This document shows positions 46,846-55,903 of a stretch of 64,000 nt of DNA, in pieces; the first letter of the stretch is position 1; the number at the start of each line of letters is the position of its first letter. The DNA is from Sphingomonadales bacterium (lineage in GTDB: Bacteria > Pseudomonadota > Alphaproteobacteria > Sphingomonadales > Sphingomonadaceae). A program made the translations under genes and the position numbers. The DNA lies in contig JAIXWO010000011.1 of NCBI GenBank assembly GCA_027491235.1, positions 62,001-126,000 of the forward strand, written 5' to 3'. Below the pieces are notes generated by a model. It saw only the letters and a program-made list of their open reading frames with translations. It ran no database searches and was not told the DNA's origin.

Positions 46846-47214
46846 TTAGTGCCGCAATTCCCGCTTCAGTGGATAGCGACCATCTTTGAACTCCCCAAAA
46901 AGCTGCCGCAATTCGGGGTGATCCACCGGGCCTTCTTCCTCGTCCGCCACCAGATTCTGCTGGCTGACATAGGCGACATAGCTCGACTCTCCGTTCTCAG
47001 CGAGCAGATGGTAGAAGGGCTGGTCCTTTGAGGGGCGGATGTCTTCCGGGATGGAATCGTACCATTCCTCGCTGTTCGCAAAAACGGGGTCGACATCGAA
47101 GATGACCCCGCGAAACGGAAAGACGCGGTGGCGGACGATGTCCCCAATGCCGAAGCGTGCGTGGGACACCGGAGGGGCATCCGTACCGAAGCTGTTGTGA
47201 TGTGAAGTGCTCAT
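46846..47214 (-). CDS. hspQ: Heat shock protein HspQ
   Basis: A 122-residue protein of the hemimethylated-DNA-binding/YccV-like family. The core HARFGIGDIVRHRVFPFRGVIFDVDPVFANSEEWY and PFYHLLAENGESSYVAYVSQQNL identifies it. HspQ modulates Lon protease and heat-shock proteolysis. The start at 47214 is chosen because upstream codons run into the tRNA-Ser region. It converges with the DUF11-like gene (3 bp apart). Confidence 0.88.
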   Translation of the reverse strand: MSTSHHNSFGTDAPPVSHARFGIGDIVRHRVFPFRGVIFDVDPVFANSEEWYDSIPEDIRPSKDQPFYHLLAENGESSYVAYVSQQNLVADEEEGPVDHPELRQLFGEFKDGRYPLKRELRH

Positions 47215-47334
47215 AAACCTGAATCTAGTGCGTGCCGGAAGAATCGCAAGCACCCGCTTGCACAGCGCACCTTGCTTCGCTAAACGCCGCCCTCGACTGG
47301 CTCCGGGTCCTTTGGGTTTCGGTTTCGCCTCTGC

Positions 47335-47424
<90 letters not shown>

Positions 47425-47487
47425 CATAACCCTATGAAAGTATTCTCTTTCTGGGGAAGCCCTCAAAAATCCTGTTGTATTCAAGGG

Positions 47488-48045
47488 TTATGGCGGTGGG
47501 CTATTCACCTCGCCTCTTTGGCGATGGCTCAAAAGTGTTCTCCTAAGTCGCATTTTCTCCAAAGCTGTTACCTGAACCGGGTTCGGTGAAGAGCAGATAA
47601 TTGCCTGCATTCTAGCCATTTTTTGGAGCAGGCGGCTTCGGGTTGGAACACGGTCCGATTTTGATCTGGAGAATCTGTCATCCAATCTTTGCTCGTCCCA
47701 GTCGATCGGAAACGGGTCCATCAACGTGGCCAGCGTGGTATCCGGACCTAGCTGCCCATCTAGGATCGCATCGATAATGTCGGGCGCCAGCAAGGTGAGC
47801 CGCAGGACGCGCGTGAGATAGGACGGCGAGATCTTCTCTTGAGCAGCTAGGTCGCCAAGGGTCGGACATGCGCCGGTATCCAGCATCCGCTTCCACCGGA
47901 AAGCCCGCGCAAGCCCCTTGATCAGGGTATTGTCGACATGCCGATGCTTTGCGAGCGCCGCATCGGGCAGTATCATCTCCTTACGCCCACCACGCTTGCG
48001 AATGCGGAATGGCACATGGACGGTTACGATTTCGGTGTTGGTCAT
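47488..48045 (-). CDS. Hypothetical HTH protein coupled to the recombinase
   Basis: A 185-residue protein not assigned to a named family. It contains a helix-turn-helix-like segment (TLGDLAAQEKISPSYLTRVLRL), resembling the DNA-binding part of ParB/Spo0J-type proteins, followed by ALDH-unrelated charged tail sequence. It overlaps the recombinase stop by 4 bp (ATGA), so it is probably cotranscribed with it as a regulator or recombination directionality partner. This role is inference. Confidence 0.68.
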   Translation of the reverse strand: MTNTEIVTVHVPFRIRKRGGRKEMILPDAALAKHRHVDNTLIKGLARAFRWKRMLDTGACPTLGDLAAQEKISPSYLTRVLRLTLLAPDIIDAILDGQLGPDTTLATLMDPFPIDWDEQRLDDRFSRSKSDRVPTRSRLLQKMARMQAIICSSPNPVQVTALEKMRLRRTLLSHRQRGEVNSPPP

Positions 48046-49337
48046 GCTGCCTGCCTCATCTCTTGTGCAAATGTGGCCATGCCGTCGAGCCGCAGCTGCA
48101 CGTCAAAACCATCGGTGCCGAGATCAACCCGCTCGACCAGCATTTGTACGATACGGGTCTGCTCGGCTGGAAACAGTTCCTCCCACATCGGATCGAGCGT
48201 GGTCAGCGCCATCCGCGCTTCCTCCTCGGTAATGACTGGCAGATGGCCTTGGGCTGACTTTGTTGATCCGGCCAAGATTTCTGGCTGGCGGAATATGGCC
48301 CGCAGCTGCTCGATGACGGCGCTCTCGATCTCGGCGGCAGGAACACGGCCAACGGGGCAGACACCGGCACCATGGCGCAGCACGGACTGGCTGACATAGT
48401 AGCGGTAGAGCTTCCCGCCCTTCCGGGTGTGGGTAGGCGAGAACGCCGCGCCATCAGGCCCCCACAGCAGGCCTTTGAGCAATGCAGGGGTATTGCAGCG
48501 TGTATGCGCCGCCCGCTTACGAGGGCTCTCGGTGAGGATCGCGTGGACCTTGTTCCAAGCATCCTGCGTGATGATCGCCTTGTGCTCACCAGGATAGCTG
48601 GTGCCCTTGTGAACGGCTTCGCCCAGATAAACCCGGTTGTTCATGAGCCGGTGCAGGAACCCCTTGGTAATGATCCCACCCTGCTTGGTGGTGATCCGGC
48701 GGTCCCTGAGATCGCGCAACATGACCGTTGCCGATCCGCACTGGGCAAACTGGTCGAAGATGTAGCGGACATGGCCGGCCTCGACGGCGTTGATGACCAG
48801 CTTGCGGGCGACAACGTCATATCCCAGCGGCGGGCAGCCGCCCATCCACATGCCCTTGGCCCGGGAGGCCGCAATCTTGTCGCGGATGCGCTCGCCGGTT
48901 ACCTCGCGCTCGAACTGCGCAAATGACAGCAGAACGTTGAGGGTCAGCCGGCCCATGCTGGTCGTCGTGTTGAACGATTGGGTCACCGACACGAACGTCA
49001 CCTCATTGCGGTCGAACACCTCGACCAGCTTGGCGAAGTCCATCAGCGAGCGCGACAAGCGGTCGATCTTGTAGACCACCACCACATCGACCAGCCCGTC
49101 CTCGATATCGGACAGCAGTCGCTGCAGCCCTGGCCGCTCCAATGTGCCGCCAGACACCCCGCCATCGTCATACTGATCGCGGACCAGCACCCAGCCTTCG
49201 TTGCGCTGGCTGGCGATAAAAGCCTCGCAGGCTTCCCGCTGGGCGTGCAGGCTGTTGAACTCCTGCTCGAGCCCTTCCTCCGATGATTTGCGCGTATAGA
49301 CCGCGCAGCGCAGCTTGCGTGTGATCGGCGTGTTCAT
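48042..49337 (-). CDS. Large serine recombinase/integrase
   Basis: A 431-residue site-specific recombinase. The resolvase domain has the nucleophile Ser18 in YTRKSSEEGLEQEFNSL, VVVYKIDRLSRSLMDF and the FAQFEREVTGERIRDK hinge. A Recombinase domain (KGMWMGGCPPLGYDV) and a zinc-ribbon-like/coiled-coil C-terminal region follow. The start at 49337 follows a GGAGGGCGG stretch. Likely integrates and excises the surrounding island. It overlaps the DUF2924 gene by 4 bp. Confidence 0.9.
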   Translation of the reverse strand: MNTPITRKLRCAVYTRKSSEEGLEQEFNSLHAQREACEAFIASQRNEGWVLVRDQYDDGGVSGGTLERPGLQRLLSDIEDGLVDVVVVYKIDRLSRSLMDFAKLVEVFDRNEVTFVSVTQSFNTTTSMGRLTLNVLLSFAQFEREVTGERIRDKIAASRAKGMWMGGCPPLGYDVVARKLVINAVEAGHVRYIFDQFAQCGSATVMLRDLRDRRITTKQGGIITKGFLHRLMNNRVYLGEAVHKGTSYPGEHKAIITQDAWNKVHAILTESPRKRAAHTRCNTPALLKGLLWGPDGAAFSPTHTRKGGKLYRYYVSQSVLRHGAGVCPVGRVPAAEIESAVIEQLRAIFRQPEILAGSTKSAQGHLPVITEEEARMALTTLDPMWEELFPAEQTRIVQMLVERVDLGTDGFDVQLRLDGMATFAQEMRQAA

Positions 49338-49786
49338 GCCGCCCTCCTGTGATGCTTGAGACCGAAGAAGACCCAGCCGTTCCAGCGCGTGCCGGTGATG
49401 GTCCGGGCAATGGCCGATAGAGATTTGTAGGGTCGGCCCTGCCATTCGAACCCGTCACGGGTGACGGTGACGCAATGCTCGGTGCCCTGCCACTCGCGGA
49501 TCAGGCGCGTGCCGATGATGGGTTTCAGATCTGTGCGGATGCGGCGGGTGGCAATGTTCCCACCGTCGAGCTGCTCGCCCAGGTCCTGCAAGCGCCGTAC
49601 TGTCTCCGGCTTCAGTCCGCCGTGGGTCAATTCCTGAATGCGGTAGCCCAGTCTGGTCTCGATGTAGCGCCGGTTGAACAACGGCGGCTCGGTGTCGAAC
49701 AGGGCGCGCCATTGTTTCTTCAGTTCAGCGCCAGACATGGTCTTCAGCGCAGCGAGGCGTGCAGGGATGGGATTGGTGGTGGTCAT
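49334..49786 (-). CDS. DUF2924 domain protein
   Basis: A 150-residue protein of the DUF2924 family (LKTMSGAELKKQWRALFDTEPP, LGYRIQELTHGGL, GTRLIREWQGTEHCVTVT, GFEWQGRPYKSLSAIARTITG). DUF2924 genes commonly sit beside large serine recombinases in alphaproteobacterial prophages and islands. The terminal SLSAIARTITGTRWNGWVFF resembles a small nucleic-acid-binding fold. Function unknown. Confidence 0.88.
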   Translation of the reverse strand: MTTTNPIPARLAALKTMSGAELKKQWRALFDTEPPLFNRRYIETRLGYRIQELTHGGLKPETVRRLQDLGEQLDGGNIATRRIRTDLKPIIGTRLIREWQGTEHCVTVTRDGFEWQGRPYKSLSAIARTITGTRWNGWVFFGLKHHRRAA

Positions 49787-50049
49787 GCAGCTCTCCTTCG
49801 AGTTGGAGCCGCACTACCGCTCTGTTCGGGCGTGAAGTGTAGCGGAAAGTCTCCACTTTCAGGGGACAGTTGTCCTTGATTGCGCAGGTGCAGGCGGACA
49901 ATACCCAGACCCAGAATTGCGCAGAGTTCAGAGCGGCGCTCGGCAGGCGTCATCAGGCTGGGATGGAGCGCATTGGGACGCTTCATGGCCCCATATCTGG
50001 GCATGTCTTCGTTGGCGCTGACGATGGGAGATAAGTCGGCTTTGATCAT
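49783..50049 (-). CDS. Small hypothetical protein of the recombinase module
   Basis: An 88-residue protein with MTPAERRSELCAILGLGIVRLHLRNQ, a helical motif recurring in short proteins encoded next to DUF2924/recombinase genes. It overlaps the DUF2924 start by 4 bp and is the first gene of the four-gene - strand unit. A later Met (residue 16) is an alternative start. Function unknown. Confidence 0.7.
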   Translation of the reverse strand: MIKADLSPIVSANEDMPRYGAMKRPNALHPSLMTPAERRSELCAILGLGIVRLHLRNQGQLSPESGDFPLHFTPEQSGSAAPTRRRAA

Positions 50050-50129
50050 GCCCGCAGGATCGCCGAATCAGGCCATTCCCCGCTACGTTCGAGGGGGTTC
50101 TCCTGTAGTTCACAGCTTTACCCCCAGAA

Positions 50130-50148
50130 GGGTTGAACCCTTCAACCC
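50130..50148. promoter_or_regulatory. Palindrome, copy 1, upstream of the 229-residue gene
   Basis: GGGTTGAA at 50130-50137, CCC, TTCAACCC at 50141-50148: a perfect 8-bp inverted repeat in the gap between divergent transcription units. An identical copy lies at 50916-50934. A likely operator for an island-encoded regulator, or an exchange site. Confidence 0.55.
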
Positions 50149-50226
50149 ATTGCGTGGTGGTGGTCTTGTCGGGCACTTATGTTCATTTTATGTTCCAGTC
50201 TCTCCCGCTCGTGATTCGGAACACAA

Positions 50227-50916
50227 ATGCCCATCGACACACTCGACCGCACCCTCTGGTCCCTTGATCAAACCTACCGGTATATCTGCCGGATTTGCCG
50301 AGCGCGGCATGAGGCGGTGACCGGTGAAAAGGTCGTGCTCGATGTTGGCAAGATATTGTCACCGACTGCGACCGGCCCATCACGCTGGCAGAACATCAGC
50401 CTCGATGCCTCACGCCAGCTTTGGCAGGCCTTGCGCCAGGGCAGCGTGCATGCGCAGGGGCGCCACTCCAACAGCCGCAATCCGGTCTTCCCGGACCGCG
50501 ATGCTCGGGAATGGATCTTTCACTCCAGCCAGCTGGTCTGGATCCCGCCTGAGCACTGGATCAGCGGGGTGCTGCATGTGGACGATGGCAGCCTGCCCGA
50601 ACGGCTGGAACTGCAGGACGGCGAATATATCGATATCCAGATCCCCCGGTTCATGGTCGAGGCAATTTGGACAATGCCACCGCCCAAGCCAATTGAGCCC
50701 ACCGATTACTCCACGCCCTACCTCGAGCTTATCCAGCGCGCTATTGCCGAGAACCGGATTGATGAGATCGAGCAGTCGAAGAAGGAAGTCCTAGTCGACT
50801 GGTTCATGGATCAGGAGATCGAAGGCGAACCGCTGTCTGGGAACCTTGCCAAGGCGATGGCGACGATCATTCGTCTGCCGTCATCCCAGCGCGGAGGTAG
50901 CAAGCGCAGCTGGTAG
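50227..50916 (+). CDS. Hypothetical protein, 229 residues
   Basis: No family recognised. A soluble mixed alpha/beta protein without signal or membrane segments: a CRICRARHEAVTG start region, a central HSSQLVWIPPEHWISGVLHVDDGSLPERLEL, and a charged C-terminal helix (KKEVLVDWFMDQEIEGEPL). It is flanked by two identical palindromes, the second overlapping its stop codon, and lies between the recombinase module and the Toprim gene. Confidence 0.65.
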   Translation: MPIDTLDRTLWSLDQTYRYICRICRARHEAVTGEKVVLDVGKILSPTATGPSRWQNISLDASRQLWQALRQGSVHAQGRHSNSRNPVFPDRDAREWIFHSSQLVWIPPEHWISGVLHVDDGSLPERLELQDGEYIDIQIPRFMVEAIWTMPPPKPIEPTDYSTPYLELIQRAIAENRIDEIEQSKKEVLVDWFMDQEIEGEPLSGNLAKAMATIIRLPSSQRGGSKRSW

Positions 50917-50934
50917 GGTTGAACCCTTCAACCC
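50916..50934. promoter_or_regulatory. Palindrome, copy 2, at the end of the 229-residue gene
   Basis: An exact copy of the 50130-50148 palindrome, starting on the last base of the TAG stop codon. It precedes the Toprim/helicase gene by about 170 bp, so it could serve as operator for that gene. Confidence 0.55.
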
Positions 50935-51106
50935 AGTGAGACTCCGAAACCGGTTCTGACCGGCGACCGCTTGGAACGTTTCGAGCAGTCAAAAATGATG
51001 ACTTTTGTCGTGCCCTCTGAAATTTCGAGGGCTCGGCACGCGTGGTTTGCGCACAATCTCCTGATCCAATTTTCACGGCACAGCAGCGCGGGAAGCGGGT
51101 GCTCGC

Positions 51107-54100
51107 GTGACCGGTGCGTCCCATTTCCATGCCGCAATGGTCGACCGTCTGCCGCAGCTCCTCTTCGAGCTGCTGGGCAAGCCATCCGCCAAGACAAGCA
51201 CAGATTGGCGCTACAGGCGCAAAGGCAGCCTGTCGGTCCGTGTGAACAGCGCCAAGGCCGGCCAGTGGTTCGACCACGAAGCAGGGTGCGGCGGCGGCTT
51301 TGTCGCCCTCGTAGCGCATGAACTTGGCTGCGATACAGACAATGCCCGCGACTGGGTAGCCGATCGCACGGGCATTAGGCCAAACGGCACAGGGACGACC
51401 AAGGCGGTTGTCCGGGCGCAGCCCAAAACACCGGAACCGTCTCGCGAAGAGTTGGCGGCAAAAGCCCGATACGAGGCGCAGCGGATCCTTGCAAATGCCA
51501 AGCCAGCGCCCGCCAATCATCCCTACCTCATCGACAAAGGGATCCAGCCCCATGGCATCCTGATCGATGCTGCCGGGCGACTGGTCATTGGCCTTCGCGA
51601 CATCGGCGGGATCATCCACACGGTCCAGCGCATCGATGGGCATGGCAATAAGCGGTTCCTGACCGGCGGTGCCAAGGCCGATCATTTTACGGTCATTGGC
51701 GAATGGACCGAGGGCACATCCCATCTGCTGGTCTGCGAAGGCTGGGCGACCGGAGCCAGCATCCACGAAGCGACAGGCGAGCCGGTTGTGGTAGCCTTCG
51801 ATGCCGGAAACCTGATCCGCGTCACCCGGGTGCTGCGCCGGCGCTATCCTAACCTTGAACTGACCATTGTCGCAGACAATGACGCCAAGCCCGAACGGAA
51901 CGATAATCCCGGCGTTGCGGCGGCAACCGAAGCGGCGCGCGACAATGATGCGCGGCTCGCCCTTTCCGACTTCGCAGGCGATGCGAATGATCTGGTACGA
52001 GCCGAAGGGCTTGAGGCCTTGCGTGCAGTCATTGCAGCAGCCCGTTGGGTGGGTGGGAAGGATCCGACCTATCCGGCGCCAGAGCACGATGTTGCCGGTG
52101 CGCGTGCCGAACTTGCCAGCCGCATTGCTACTTTCATGGACGAGGTTGCTGCCTTCTACGAAACGGCAGCGCAGAACCTCGGCGAGGGCGACACAGCCAA
52201 TGCCCCTAAGCCGCCACTGCTCGGTTTACCCGTCGACGTTGGGCTCGGCAAAACCAGTCAGGTCCGCGACCAGATCATCGCGGCATTGGCAGCTAAACGG
52301 CTTGGCGGGGGTAAGGTGGTATTCGCAGTGCCGCGCCACGACCTCGGTGAAGAACAGGTAGATGCTTTTTCCAGGGCCGGTGTAGCAGCAGTTCTCTGGA
52401 AAGGCCGGACCGCGCCGGATCCTGTGCCGGACAACCCAGATCAGCGCATGTGCCTTGATCCCGACGCGCAGGCCGATGCGCTGGCAGCCGAACTCTCGGT
52501 TGAACAGGCCATATGCAAGGTCAAACGTGACAGCAAGACCTTCTACTGCCCGCATTACGAGGTCTGCGGATACCAGCGACAGAAGCTCATCGCCAAGTCT
52601 GCGCAGGTCATCATCTGTGCGCATGACAGCCTGTTCCATGCGATGCCCCAGGTCATCGGCCGGCCGGCACTTTTGGTGATCGACGAGGGGTTCTGGCAGT
52701 CGGGTCTGCGCGGCACGGATAGTCCGGCCCAGATCACCGTCGATAGCCTCGATCCCTATGACGCGGACCTGCGCTGCTACGACCACAAGAATGGCTATGA
52801 CTACCCCGAGACCCAGTTCCTGATCGAGCATCGGTTGAAGCTCTGGAAGGTGCTTGAGCGGCACCGGGAAGGCCCCCTTCGCCTCGCTGACCTGCGGACC
52901 GCTAGACTGACACCGACCATCTGCCGGGACGCAGCAAAACTCGAGCGTGGCAGGCTGCGGGATCCGGGTATTTTGCCGGGCATGTCGGCTGCCGAACGCG
53001 CGAAACGGCTGGGTGCAGTGATGCCGCGGCGCAGGAACGCCTGGGCTCCGCCGGGTCGTGCTGCGGCCATGTGGTCGATCCTCGCCGAGGCGCTAGACGC
53101 AGGGCACGATGCCTGGGGCGTGCAGGTTGGCCGAATGCATACGCCCAACGGCACGGTCAGGTCGCTGGACCTCCTGTGGCGGTCATCGATCCGGACTGGG
53201 TGGATCGAGAATATACCGGTCCTGCATATTGACGCGACAATGCGACAGGAACTGGTCACGCCCTTTCTGCCCGGTATTTCTGTGGCCCCGGCCGTTAGCG
53301 CCAGGACACCACATGTGCGGATCCGGCAGGTCCTCGGGGCGCCGGTAAGCAGCAAGGCGCTGGTGCCCGGGCCGCACGCGAAGGACCGGGATCACACGAC
53401 TGCAGCCAATAACCAGCGTGCCCTGCGGACCTACCTCTCCGCCCGGACGCTGCAGATGGGGGCCAGAACAGCGCCGGTGCTCGCCATCGGGCAGATGCGG
53501 GCGATCTCGGCTCTCACCGAAGGCGATCTGCCGGCAAATCTGGAAACCGCCCACTTCAATGCGTTGAGTGGTCTGGATCGCTGGGGGCAAGTTGCCGGCA
53601 TGGTCATCATGGGGCGCACGCTGCCGGCGCCTTCTGTAATCGCAAAGCTGCAGATCGCGCTGACAGGGCGTCCGCCTCAAGAGGACAATGACAATGAGAG
53701 CTGGTGGTATCCGCTGACCGAGCGGGTGATCCGTCGACCCAATGGTCGATCCCGCATGGTCATGGGCGAACATCATCCCGATCCAATCGCGGAAGCCATT
53801 CGTTGGAATATCTGCGAAGGCGAACTGATCCAGGCAATGGGACGCGGGCGCGGTGTCAACCGCACGGCCGAGAGCCCGCTCCAGATCGATCTGCTCACGG
53901 ATATCGTGCTACCTATCACCGCCGACAAGTTAATCGATTGGGCGGCGCTCGTTCCCAGCCGTATCGACATGATGGCCTCGCGCGGTGTCGTGCTCGACAA
54001 CGCTGCCGACCGGGCGAAGTGCTTTCCGGATCTGTGGCCGACCCGCGAGATTGCCAAGAAGGACGCCAAGAGGAGGGGGACAAATGGCTATTATAGGATA

Positions 54101-54286
54101 TTCTATAATAGCGAAATGTCCCCCTCCTCGGCTGCGGTGACATACCGGCCCGAAGGATCAGGTCAGAAGGTCAGGTCGGCCATGTTTAACCTGGAGCTGA
54201 TCCCAGACCCTGCCGCGTGGCTCACTGAGCGACTGGGGCCATTGGCCGACTGCGAAGTTGTCACGGGCGCGGATCTGGCCGCCTGA
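51107..54286 (+). CDS. Toprim-domain protein fused to an Fe-S (XPD/DinG-like) helicase-like region
   Basis: A 1059-residue multidomain protein with a GTG start (Met at residue 11 is an alternative). N-terminal region (about 35-75) like plasmid primases (GQWFDHEAGCGGGFVALVAH). Toprim domain about 205-300 with catalytic Glu211 (VCEGWATG) and the ADND pair near 256-259. Then an ATPase: Walker A DVGLGKTS (377-384), four cysteines C449, C470, C481, C487 before a QVIICAHDSLFH block, and Walker-B-like LLVIDEGFW (about 523-530). The cysteine set between motifs I and II recalls the 4Fe-4S helicases XPD/DinG. Likely replication or maintenance of the island. Confidence 0.75.
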   Translation: MTGASHFHAAMVDRLPQLLFELLGKPSAKTSTDWRYRRKGSLSVRVNSAKAGQWFDHEAGCGGGFVALVAHELGCDTDNARDWVADRTGIRPNGTGTTKAVVRAQPKTPEPSREELAAKARYEAQRILANAKPAPANHPYLIDKGIQPHGILIDAAGRLVIGLRDIGGIIHTVQRIDGHGNKRFLTGGAKADHFTVIGEWTEGTSHLLVCEGWATGASIHEATGEPVVVAFDAGNLIRVTRVLRRRYPNLELTIVADNDAKPERNDNPGVAAATEAARDNDARLALSDFAGDANDLVRAEGLEALRAVIAAARWVGGKDPTYPAPEHDVAGARAELASRIATFMDEVAAFYETAAQNLGEGDTANAPKPPLLGLPVDVGLGKTSQVRDQIIAALAAKRLGGGKVVFAVPRHDLGEEQVDAFSRAGVAAVLWKGRTAPDPVPDNPDQRMCLDPDAQADALAAELSVEQAICKVKRDSKTFYCPHYEVCGYQRQKLIAKSAQVIICAHDSLFHAMPQVIGRPALLVIDEGFWQSGLRGTDSPAQITVDSLDPYDADLRCYDHKNGYDYPETQFLIEHRLKLWKVLERHREGPLRLADLRTARLTPTICRDAAKLERGRLRDPGILPGMSAAERAKRLGAVMPRRRNAWAPPGRAAAMWSILAEALDAGHDAWGVQVGRMHTPNGTVRSLDLLWRSSIRTGWIENIPVLHIDATMRQELVTPFLPGISVAPAVSARTPHVRIRQVLGAPVSSKALVPGPHAKDRDHTTAANNQRALRTYLSARTLQMGARTAPVLAIGQMRAISALTEGDLPANLETAHFNALSGLDRWGQVAGMVIMGRTLPAPSVIAKLQIALTGRPPQEDNDNESWWYPLTERVIRRPNGRSRMVMGEHHPDPIAEAIRWNICEGELIQAMGRGRGVNRTAESPLQIDLLTDIVLPITADKLIDWAALVPSRIDMMASRGVVLDNAADRAKCFPDLWPTREIAKKDAKRRGTNGYYRIFYNSEMSPSSAAVTYRPEGSGQKVRSAMFNLELIPDPAAWLTERLGPLADCEVVTGADLAA
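54070..54129. repeat. 60-bp near-perfect inverted repeat inside the coding sequence
   Basis: Two 27-bp arms, 54070-54096 and 54103-54129, around a 6-base loop; only a short central stretch of each arm (CATTT against GAAAT) fails to pair. The AT-rich inner part (GCTATTATAG/CTATAATAGC) contrasts with the GC-rich surroundings. It encodes about residues 989-1008 of the Toprim protein. Confidence 0.7.
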
Positions 54287-55033
54287 CCGGCGCGGGAATT
54301 AATCCCCCCCCGGGGGGGGGAGGGTAAAACTATAAAGGGTTCGAGTGGGAAACCGCTCTCGATCCAAAATTCACGCAACCGCGAATTAACGACCGGGGGT
54401 CAGATTTATATAATGACCTAATATCAGATACTTGTGCGATCTGCGCTGTGTGATTTTGCGCCAATTGCGCGCAGCGTGTGTCGGGGGATCCCTTTACCGA
54501 CCGCCTTATGAAAACCCGTCCATCTCCTAGTATGAGATGAAGGCGCCGCCGGCAGCCTTACTCGGTTATTATGGAGCTTCCGGCTATCGCACCTACATGA
54601 ACTGTTACGGGCTCAAGTTCGATCTCGTAAGCCAGGACATCATGCTGAAGGTCGTGCTGGGCGCCGACTGCTTCATTGACCAGCCACTTCCGCCGCTACC
54701 TCGCGGGCCAAATTTTATGCCCGGATCCATCGATCTGACGGCTCGGTTGCCCCGGAGGTCGACTGTTATGTGCTAAGTGACCGGGAGGTCATGAAGGCCT
54801 ACTGTCAAGCGGTCGGACATCCTTGGCCATATGCCGATGAAACGGCCGACAGCGTCTGGCTCTACGGGGTCACGTTCAACATCGAGACTGGGCAAATCGA
54901 AGTGGTGAAGGCTTATGAGCGAACTCAAGCTGCCACCTGAGGACATGGCGGAGATTGACCGCCGGTTCTGGACTACAGTCGATGAGGAGCGACGACTATA
55001 CCAGGCAGTAAATAGAAAAATTAAATCAAAATA
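54287..55033. other. Gene-poor island edge with C8G9 palindrome and coding remnants
   Basis: Just after the Toprim gene there is a run of eight C then nine G (54304-54320), followed by AT-rich DNA to about 54535 with nothing recognised. From 54537 two overlapping frames are open in turn: one from 54537 reading MKAPPAALLGYYGASGYRTY and failing by 54776, another open from 54680 to a TGA at 54938. They look like pieces of frameshifted or truncated genes. No intact gene, RNA or insertion sequence is seen. Confidence 0.5.
54680..54940 (+). pseudogene. C-terminal fragment of an unknown protein
   Basis: An 86-codon open frame without a convincing start, reading protein-like sequence (EVDCYVLSDREVMKAYCQAV, then TADSVWLYGVTFNIETGQIE) to the TGA at 54938-54940. 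A frame switch near 54700 from the ORF beginning at 54537 is possible. No family recognised. Probably a decayed island gene. Confidence 0.4.
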
Positions 55034-55067
55034 TCAGCGCGTCGGAACCGGCAAATCTCCCGAATAA
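54915..55067 (+). CDS. Short reading frame, possible truncated gene start
   Basis: An ATG at 54915 overlaps the previous fragment's end and opens 50 codons (MSELKLPPEDMAEIDRRFWT...) with plausible coding character. It runs into AT-rich sequence and ends inside the convergent dehydrogenase gene. It reads like the N-terminus of a larger gene cut off at the island edge. Expression is doubtful. Confidence 0.35.
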   Translation: MSELKLPPEDMAEIDRRFWTTVDEERRLYQAVNRKIKSKYQRVGTGKSPE

Positions 55068-55903
55068 TCATAGAAACCTCGACCGGATTTTCGTCCAACC
55101 CACCCAGCTTCGACGTACTTTACCAGCAAAGGCGCCGGACGGTACTTCGAATCCCCCGTGGTGTTGTAAAGCACGCGGACGATGTCGAGGCAGGTGTCGA
55201 GCCCGACGAAATCGGCCAGTTCCAGTGGCCCCATCGGGTGGTTGAGGCCCAGGCGGCAGCCCTTGTCGATGTCGACAATGCTGGCCGTGCCCTGACCCAG
55301 CACGAAGACCGCCTCGTTGATCATCGGCAGCAGGATGCGGTTGACGACGAACCCGGGTTCATCCTCCGCCTGCACCACCTGCTTGCCAAGGCTTTCGGCG
55401 AAGGCGCGGGTGCGAGCGACGGTTTCGGCGCTGGTGGCAAGGCCGGGAATCACTTCGATCAGGCCCATGACCGGAACCGGGTTGAAGAAGTGCAGGCCGA
55501 TGAAGCGCGCCGGATCGGGCGAGCTGGTCGCCATGCGGGTGATTGGGATCGAGCTGGTGTTCGAAGCCATGATCGCATCGCCGCGCAGGACCTTGCCCGC
55601 CGCTTCAAAGATCTTGCGCTTGATCTCTTCCTTTTCGGTCGCCGCTTCGATGATCAGGTCGGCCTCAGCCATGGCGGCATAGTCGCCGATCGGGGTAATC
55701 CGGGTGAGGGCGGCTTCGGCATCAGCAGGGGTGATCTTGTCGCGCCCGACCAGGCGGGTCAGCGCCTTGTCGATCCCGGCCTTGGCCTTTTCCGCCAGTG
55801 CGATATCGACATCGGAGAGGAGGACCTTGATCCCTTTTTGAGCACTGGCTTGGGCAATCCCGGAACCCATCTGACCTGCACCAATGATGCCGACAATCTT
55901 CAT
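55034..55903 (-). CDS. 3-hydroxyacyl-CoA (3-hydroxybutyryl-CoA) dehydrogenase
   Basis: A 289-residue NAD-dependent beta-oxidation/PHB-type enzyme. The start at 55903 has AAGGTG about 7 bp upstream. The dinucleotide motif GAGQMG is at 8-13, SNTSSIPI follows, and the catalytic His138/Glu150 pair lies in GLHFFNPVPVMGLIEVI; EDEPGFVVNRILLPMINEA precedes the C-terminal domain. The short single-domain length fits 3-hydroxybutyryl-CoA dehydrogenases. Codon composition is typical of the chromosome, unlike the genes to its right. Confidence 0.9.
   Translation of the reverse strand: MKIVGIIGAGQMGSGIAQASAQKGIKVLLSDVDIALAEKAKAGIDKALTRLVGRDKITPADAEAALTRITPIGDYAAMAEADLIIEAATEKEEIKRKIFEAAGKVLRGDAIMASNTSSIPITRMATSSPDPARFIGLHFFNPVPVMGLIEVIPGLATSAETVARTRAFAESLGKQVVQAEDEPGFVVNRILLPMINEAVFVLGQGTASIVDIDKGCRLGLNHPMGPLELADFVGLDTCLDIVRVLYNTTGDSKYRPAPLLVKYVEAGWVGRKSGRGFYDYSGDLPVPTR

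Follow-up and report, generated by a model that had tools for sequence, protein, structure and literature searches.

We describe here a primase-helicase gene in a 64,000-nucleotide stretch of DNA from a Sphingomonadales bacterium of the family Sphingomonadaceae (GenBank assembly GCA_027491235.1, contig JAIXWO010000011.1, positions 62,001 to 126,000 of the forward strand); the whole stretch is referred to as the window and its first letter is position 1. The gene lies in a small element that begins at a tRNA-Ser gene and carries, in this order, a gene of 185 amino acids (aa), a large serine recombinase gene, a DUF2924 gene, a small gene, a 229-aa gene and the primase-helicase gene. The last occupies 51107..54286 of the plus strand and translates into 1059 aa with no internal stop. 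Translation may start at the GTG at 51107 or, alternatively, at Met11 (51137), where similarity to several relatives begins. The predicted protein joins a DnaG-like Toprim domain to a helicase of DinG/XPD type with four conserved cysteines in the place of an iron-sulphur (Fe-S) domain.

The N-terminal third resembles a DNA primase. The phrog_2249 DNA primase profile matches residues 40-351 (E 1.7e-61), and on this match and on column counts a DnaG-like N-terminal region was assigned to residues 11-90 (51137..51376, +). By eye, the region has a zinc-ribbon-like pattern from which the zinc cysteines are absent. In the 39-row alignment A2, D56 is invariant (25 of 25 rows) and H57 nearly so (24 of 25), and the zinc-binding CHC2 site was not found, Cys61 being a cysteine in 3 of 25 rows only. 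DnaG-type primases of mobile elements commonly have no zinc site. A Toprim_3 domain (PF13362) follows at residues 207-301 (51725..52009, +), scoring 43.1 bits against a cut-off of 27.2 in the Pfam scan (E 5.9e-11). The translation has Glu211 and the ADND motif where a first-pass annotation, made from the letters alone, had placed them: E211 lies within CEGWATG, and the DND of ADND is residues 257-259. These catalytic residues are well kept in alignment A2 (E211 in 25 of 25 rows, D257 in 24 of 26 and D259 in 25 of 26).

The first-pass annotation had left the Toprim as either primase-like or topoisomerase-like. The former stands, on the phrog_2249 and Toprim_3 matches; the latter was dropped, as the window protein matched no topoisomerase family, the Pfam scan showing Toprim_3 only and the Toprim neighbours being DNA primases. 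Judged by sequence, the Toprim is of the DnaG-primase kind. It shares with P4 alpha, TraC and phrog_2249 the N-terminal region and a Toprim with E and DxD, and phage P4 alpha is itself among the matches of the window protein. Passages of the 2017 polyvalent-protein paper (PMC5512222) describe Toprim_3 domains as DnaG-like primases of mobile elements. A DUF7146 region precedes Toprim_3 in two relatives (L045 and L049; L numbers denote loci); the window protein has no match to it at E up to 1.

The helicase part has a Walker A motif (motif I), DVGLGKTS, at residues 377-384 (52235..52258, +). The predicted Fe-S domain comes next, with Cys449, Cys470, Cys481 and Cys487 at a spacing of 21-11-6 (52451..52567, +), and after the fourth cysteine stand QVIICAHDSLFH and then motif II, LLVIDEGFW, with D526 and E527 (52670..52696, +). 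Motif I, the cysteines and motif II thus read in the translation just as first annotated. Residues 531-708 (52697..53230, +) lie between motifs II and III, where DinG and XPD have their Arch domain, and the 183-residue insert from D526 to D709, compared with 211 in DinG and 171 in YoaA (from DE to SATL), fits such a domain in length. A putative motor domain 2 takes up residues 709-930 (53231..53896, +), with DAT (motif III), GLD...GRxxP (V-like) and QxxGRxRxxxR (VI, residues 909-919) conserved.

Relatives were gathered from GTDB genomes, IMG/VR contigs and plasmids, and among them the four cysteines hardly vary, a point on which the first-pass annotation had made its Fe-S proposal depend. In the 14-row alignment A1 (the window protein and 13 others, 22-90% identical to it) the invariant columns include the four cysteines, G381 and K382, D526 and E527, and Q909, R913, R915 and R919. 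All four cysteines are present in 32 of the 32 rows of alignment A2 that cover the region; six rows of A2 are Toprim-only partners, and a misaligned cysteine at column 470 in five was not counted. In a 51-row alignment, window included, 50 rows have all four, the exception being the very divergent L082 with only the last two aligned, and the next most conserved cysteine columns reach merely 37 and 35 of 51 rows. Across the 50 rows the first gap is 19-21 residues, the second 3-16, and the last 6 in 49 and 10 in one. D526, E527, D709, A710, G822, Q909, R913 and R915 are shared by 51 of 51 rows, and G381 and K382 by 50, the other row having a gap.

The 51 rows, on which the tree and counts below are also based, leave out L052, L074 and L080 (truncated, without the cysteine region), L072 (two frames), L059 (a near copy of L058), L147 (the same place as L121) and the incomplete L004 and L066. 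Five of these eight, L004, L059, L066, L072 and L147, have the four-cysteine pattern as well. L122 and L148, which represent one and the same place, both remain in the set, and single contigs appear under several labels (L007/L013/L146, L003/L012, L005/L015 and L014/L145). Two of the loci left out are unusual in themselves. In L072 (5920-9647) the gene lies in two overlapping frames that break within the helicase, by sequencing error or in reality, and L052, on plasmid pCMU02, encodes a 585-aa protein that corresponds to the C-terminal helicase half only, without Walker A and the cysteines.

The DinG/XPD-like character of motor domain 1 and the cysteine region, first proposed from the motifs, was recovered by several kinds of profile comparison. 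Aligned by hhalign to a 30-sequence DinG/YoaA profile, the family profile matches over residues 368-529 with Prob 97.6 and E 4e-12; the match runs through motif I, the cysteines and motif II, and it sets C470, C481 and C487 against C194, C199 and C205 of E. coli DinG. A 32-sequence DinG-family version that includes L102 and L105, neither of which had a YoaA match, gave a weaker result (Prob 96.7, E 3.6e-10). Against single E. coli proteins, the values of Prob were 90.9 for YoaA and 77.9 for DinG, followed by Mfd (15.2), RhlE (7.8), RecG (7.4), UvrD (5.0), UvrB (1.5), RecQ (1.1), DnaB (0.9) and three unrelated proteins (0.1). The PADLOC model typeIV_DinG, a CRISPR DinG model, matches residues 445-528 (E 2.3e-7). 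In a PDB profile search with alignment A3, DinG was the best match (E 0.0025), and DinG, three Ta0057 XPD chains, the XPD 9p55 and CHL1 made up 6 of the 11 matches at E<=1. When nine control stretches (six from E. coli and three from SPbeta) were searched by hmmsearch, DinG came first (6.8e-6), then YoaA (8.5e-4) and Mfd (0.015).

Genome searches with the family profile point the same way. At class level, 5 of 8 weak matches were chromosomal DinG/YoaA proteins by BLAST, and at phylum level the weak matches in G415, G426, G444 and G445 agree in contig, strand and frame length with an independent Helicase_C_2 match. The profile matched 42 of 398 genomes in the phylum tally, a figure that is not the frequency of this helicase family, because the weak matches mostly fall on model positions 110-220, the part common to DinG; matches with E below 1e-15 occurred in 7 of 398 genomes and, in the other genome set, in 14 of 385. 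From residue 362 onward the window protein has no Pfam match at E up to 1; among the relatives, DEAD was touched in 13 of 21 and DEAD_2, the XPD/DinG family, in 2 of 21.

Several results weigh against a specific tie to DinG. With the 51-row profile, single sequences are separated less well (YoaA 89.0, Mfd 75.7, DinG 44.3, RhlE 43.2), while the DinG and YoaA family profiles remain at Prob 96-97. The other 5 of the 11 PDB matches with A3 are superfamily 2 (SF2) proteins of other kinds (SLH1, ASCC3, two Mfd and DeaD), and the PDB search with the 14-row A1 puts Mfd first (E 0.015) and DinG third (0.13). In profile comparison neither DinG nor YoaA aligns with residues 691-1000 (Prob <=0.4 with the 41-row and 51-row profiles), and the case for motor domain 2 rests on where motifs III, V-like and VI lie and on their conservation. 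A PDB search with the single window protein gave four matches, at E 0.098 or worse, with no helicase among them. On the sum of the profile comparisons, motor domain 1 and the cysteine region are, at the level of sequence, homologous to DinG.

The metal is a separate matter, and four cysteines could also bind zinc. That the cysteines hold zinc or are structural only, the protein being an SF2 translocase with no redox-active cluster, would be in keeping with the pseudo-FeS domain, devoid of a cluster, which passages of a 2025 review ascribe to some DinG-like proteins (PMC11981726). The pseudo-FeS CasDinG described in the same passages is without the cysteines, whereas 50 of 51 rows here keep all four, and they stand in the DinG position, three of them aligned with cysteines of DinG itself. 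We therefore regard zinc as unlikely, and the domain as a probable Fe-S binder.

The same helicase occurs with different primases. By primase partner, the 51 tree rows comprise 21 with a fused Toprim, 8 with Toprim as a separate gene, 9 with a primase-polymerase (Prim-Pol), 2 with a third primase-like domain, 5 with the helicase alone (two of them identical) and 6 unassigned; "alone" refers to the locus, not to the whole replicon. The Prim-Pol was assigned from Pfam above cut-off in L047, L076, L077 and L079, below cut-off in L075, and in the others by a local profile built from those four. The Toprim and Prim-Pol profiles show no match to each other's members at E up to 10. The third primase-like domain is represented by L046, which matches the phrog_16950 DNA primase (E 5.7e-28), and by L121, whose domain is related to that of L046 (E 2e-51). 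Intermediate arrangements exist as well: in L008 a Toprim frame and a helicase frame overlap, with the split at residue 366/367 of the window protein, and on a Bradyrhizobium plasmid separate Toprim and helicase genes overlap by 8 bases. To explain the partner labels, the tree requires at least 7 changes, of which the contrast between Toprim and the two other kinds of primase, taken by itself, requires at least 4; the tree was built quickly and has several long branches, so single joins are unsure. The helicase has thus been paired repeatedly with unrelated primases, apparently to copy phage and plasmid DNA, and the strongest argument that priming and unwinding are coupled is that the helicase remains constant as the primase superfamily is exchanged.

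Three loci have Prim-Pol, Toprim and helicase in one frame of 1267-1274 codons with no stop: L003 from a Caenibius metagenome-assembled genome (MAG), L005 from a Sphingomonadaceae MAG and L006 from Novosphingobium aerophilum 4Y4. The Prim-Pol (PF09250; E 1.4e-35, 1.7e-35 and 8.8e-37, respectively) stands at the frame start and has DLD and GxH motifs, and the Toprim and helicase follow with their catalytic residues. The best PDB match of the L003 Prim-Pol part is the ORF904 prim-pol structure of plasmid pRN1 (E 0.0045). Ratios of nonsynonymous to synonymous substitution (dN/dS) were 0.15-0.24 for the Prim-Pol (three sequences) and, among six near relatives with the window included, 0.15-0.29 for the Toprim and 0.09-0.17 for the helicase; by this measure all domains are under purifying selection.

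Prim-Pol is absent from the window, L007 and L145, and L003, which has it, is the sister of the window in the tree. DNA homology between the window and L003, L005 and L006 stops at 50913-50915, at the second copy of a palindromic 24-mer repeat (AGGGTTGAACCCTTCAACCCATTG; copy 1 at 50129..50152, copy 2 at 50915..50938, the latter ending 168 bases before the primase-helicase start). Beyond the break the three loci share one gene family (a DUF4143/AAA_14 ATPase, from Pfam on L003 only) and then the Prim-Pol part, and we infer a recombination-driven exchange of cassettes. The DUF4143/AAA_14-type family (L003:2618-3868, L005:7898-9148, L006:7940-9097) is absent from the rest of the 45 gene contexts compared.

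Relatives of the primase-helicase occur in IMG/VR viral contigs, on plasmids and in tRNA-Ser islands. Many of the 45 contexts are short contigs, and each gene cluster takes its name from tests on one to three of its members; with this proviso, 23 contexts contain the recombinase cluster, 14 DUF2924, 12 ParB/methyltransferase, 6 a large terminase and 4 a small terminase. On a Roseomonas mucosa plasmid, an annotated small terminase adjoins the helicase-family gene. The helicase part matches 26 of 72,556 plasmids, of which 24 presumably belong to Alphaproteobacteria, going by their names, and 22 are typed non-mobilizable; 6 of the 8 plasmid records that we examined, including p546-7 (18.5 kb), have no replicon type named. 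Terminases and recombinases on the one hand and carriage on plasmids on the other suggest a module at home in phage-like elements as well as plasmids. A search of 50,697 phage records with the helicase part gave no match at E up to 0.01, and two relatives likewise gave none at 0.1. One plasmid record, NZ_CP015609.1 (H42 and H82), is labelled Bacillus safensis; its helicase relative is 34.4% identical to the window protein, versus 33.9% for those of R. mucosa, and mislabelling or contamination is possible. Elsewhere, on a viral contig, a gene upstream of the primase-helicase (L059:1384-4725) encodes a 1114-aa SNF2-type protein whose SWIM match is below cut-off.

Taken together, we consider it probable that a small integrative element at tRNA-Ser is replicated with the help of the primase-helicase that this gene encodes, in which a DnaG-like Toprim is joined in one chain to a helicase of DinG/XPD type with a four-cysteine Fe-S domain. 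At sequence level this reading is supported by the domains and their intact catalytic residues, by selection, by the conserved cysteines and the relation of motor domain 1 to DinG, and by the repeated pairing with primases and the placement in mobile elements. The proposal of the first-pass annotation, that a Toprim and a DinG/XPD-like Fe-S helicase act together in replication or mobilisation of the element, is likewise supported. The serine recombinase would excise the element, and replication would follow excision. The helicase, with motor domain 2 active and with the polarity of DinG, would travel 5'->3' on the displaced strand, the lagging-strand template, and open the duplex; the tethered Toprim would prime the same strand that the helicase tracks, and a host polymerase would extend the primers. 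Such coupling would equal that of T7 gp4, which uses a ring helicase. Two observations on the element weigh against this reading. A second tRNA-end attachment site was not found in the window (allowing up to 3 mismatches), and no phage structural gene was found by Pfam among the five neighbouring genes scanned; we may therefore be dealing with a satellite, or with what is left of a larger element.

The wider proposal is that these proteins form a class of replicative helicase that has gone unrecognised: many phage-like elements and plasmids, mostly of Alphaproteobacteria, would replicate with an Fe-S motor of DinG/XPD type, onto which unrelated primases have repeatedly been plugged. In the nearest kin with both primases in one chain, the two would then either divide the labour within one replisome or show one primase in the course of displacing the other. 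We put the chances of this at about even. If it is true, an Fe-S helicase would serve as a fork helicase and replication of the element could be tied to iron or redox state; the helicase would be the constant part of the replication module and the primase the variable one. The triple fusions would permit a direct test of primase superfamily replacement, which is usually argued from distant comparisons only.

A role after transfer rather than in autonomous replication would make the protein a primase like TraC or SogL: it would prime the complementary strand after conjugation, with the helicase clearing the incoming strand or unwinding it. Passages of PMC5512222 describe Toprim_3 primases as typical of conjugative elements, one relative lies on a plasmid typed conjugative, and two helicase-only forms are on plasmids with mobF. 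None of the five island genes scanned is a transfer gene, however, and the predominance of non-mobilizable types among the helicase plasmids, together with the large terminase at 6 of the 45 loci, makes this explanation improbable.

We also consider it quite improbable that the protein acts in defence or counter-defence, where the Toprim would be an OLD-like nuclease and the helicase would attack invading DNA as an effector of DinG type, comparable to CasDinG. DinG-like proteins do serve type IV CRISPR interference, as stated in passages of PMC11981726, and PADLOC returned partial matches to typeIV_DinG, RTasDnaG-like and PprDinG; these matches cover shared domains only (88/575, 106/550 and 39/930 positions), and the Toprim part matches DNA-primase families. 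The fusion of the same helicase to Prim-Pol and to a third primase-like domain is better explained by replication. A reverse-gyrase-like topoisomerase-helicase, which has the same general layout of an SF2 helicase and a Toprim in one chain, is scarcely credible, given that its domain order is the reverse and that no topoisomerase IA domain was matched beside a Toprim whose neighbours are DNA primases.

As a replicative primase-helicase, the protein can be compared with several known systems. It has in common with DinG, YoaA and XPD (Rad3), CasDinG included, a Walker A motif, four cysteines between motifs I and II, a DE box, a long insert before motif III and a QxxGR motif VI. It differs in that its DE box is DEGFW and not DEAH or DEGH, in a motor domain 2 that is unrecognisable by profile, in having a primase fused or adjacent, and in its place on mobile elements. 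Characterised DinG/XPD helicases act in repair, transcription-linked work and CRISPR interference. In T7 gp4, too, a single chain carries a Toprim primase on the N-terminal side of a replicative helicase, but this is a superfamily 4 (SF4) hexameric ring where the window protein has an SF2 DinG-type motor; no SF4 (DnaB-like) helicase was found in the window protein, DnaB reaching Prob 0.9 in hhalign and the Pfam scan showing no SF4 family. The Toprim_3 primases of phages and plasmids do not, as far as seen, have this helicase as their partner, going by the phage records noted above.

In the literature, passages of Kazlauskas et al. 2018 (PMC5862659) describe all3500-family Prim-Pols with a remote SF2-like C-terminal domain in mobile elements, likewise an archaeo-eukaryotic primase (AEP) with an SF2-like helicase, and link that domain with UL9 of herpes and with pVOGs 1685/9714, from SPbeta and T4-like phages. 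No kinship with this SF2-like group was found: PF02399 occurred in 0 of 21 rows at E up to 1 and the best SPbeta match had E 0.43, the pVOG models themselves not being compared. For SCCmec, Bebel et al. 2020 (PMC7581432) propose a primase-helicase module for the element's own replication; that module differs in its primase, an A-family polymerase, and in its helicase, Cch2, which works 3'-to-5'. The review of DinG-like proteins from 2025 (PMC11981726), which gives such proteins a role in CRISPR interference, names no primase form among the subgroups of its abstract, and its main text contains neither "toprim" nor "primase". Among the matches listed in literature searches of titles and abstract openings, which barely cover subscription journals, there is no description of a primase joined to a DinG-type helicase.

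The tRNA-Ser (CGA) gene predicted by ARAGORN at 47335..47424 (+) forms the left junction of the element. In 6 of 6 fetched relatives of the same genus, similarity to the window breaks off at 47424/47425, and a homologous element also begins at tRNA-Ser in L145, a one-contig genome, and in L146. The DNA shared with relatives ends at 54402-54464, giving an element of about 7 kb of shared DNA. This right end is a limit of similarity, because the right flank of the window does not appear in the fetched stretches of the six same-genus relatives (of 12 others matched). Rfam over 47000-55100 reported the tRNA only. Between the shared end and the next host gene, at 54464-55034, there are short frames, one of which (54537-54773) has no Pfam match; they are perhaps remnants of a host gene or of an older element.

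Next to the tRNA lies the recombinase cassette, on the minus strand. It consists of the 185-aa gene (47488..48045; cluster 3, at 13 of 45 loci), which has no Pfam match, the 467-aa large serine recombinase (48042..49445; PF00239 at E 8e-39, PF07508 and PF13408; cluster 1, at 23 of 45) and the DUF2924 gene (49334..49786; PF11149 at E 6.7e-51; cluster 2, at 14 of 45). Among the matches listed for DUF2924 with recombinase in the literature are papers on Wolbachia. The 229-aa gene upstream of the primase-helicase (50227..50916, +; cluster 6, at 10 of 45 loci) has a Pfam match below cut-off only (E 0.086). The two copies of the 24-mer palindrome flank this gene, and two copies are likewise present in L004, L007 and L145. 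The palindrome centre is identical between both copies in the window, L004 and L007 and differs in L145; the repeat is possibly an operator or a recombination site. A hairpin in the leader of the primase-helicase gene (51007..51039, +), seen by eye in alignment A4, is imperfect in the window but pairs completely in L007 and also, though its letters differ, in L003; it is possibly an attenuator or part of an origin. In L007 (20090-20187, the same as L146:164-261), a second stretch resembling the tRNA-Ser 3' end together with the element start (73% identity) lies about 15 kb downstream, which suggests tandem elements at tRNA-Ser.

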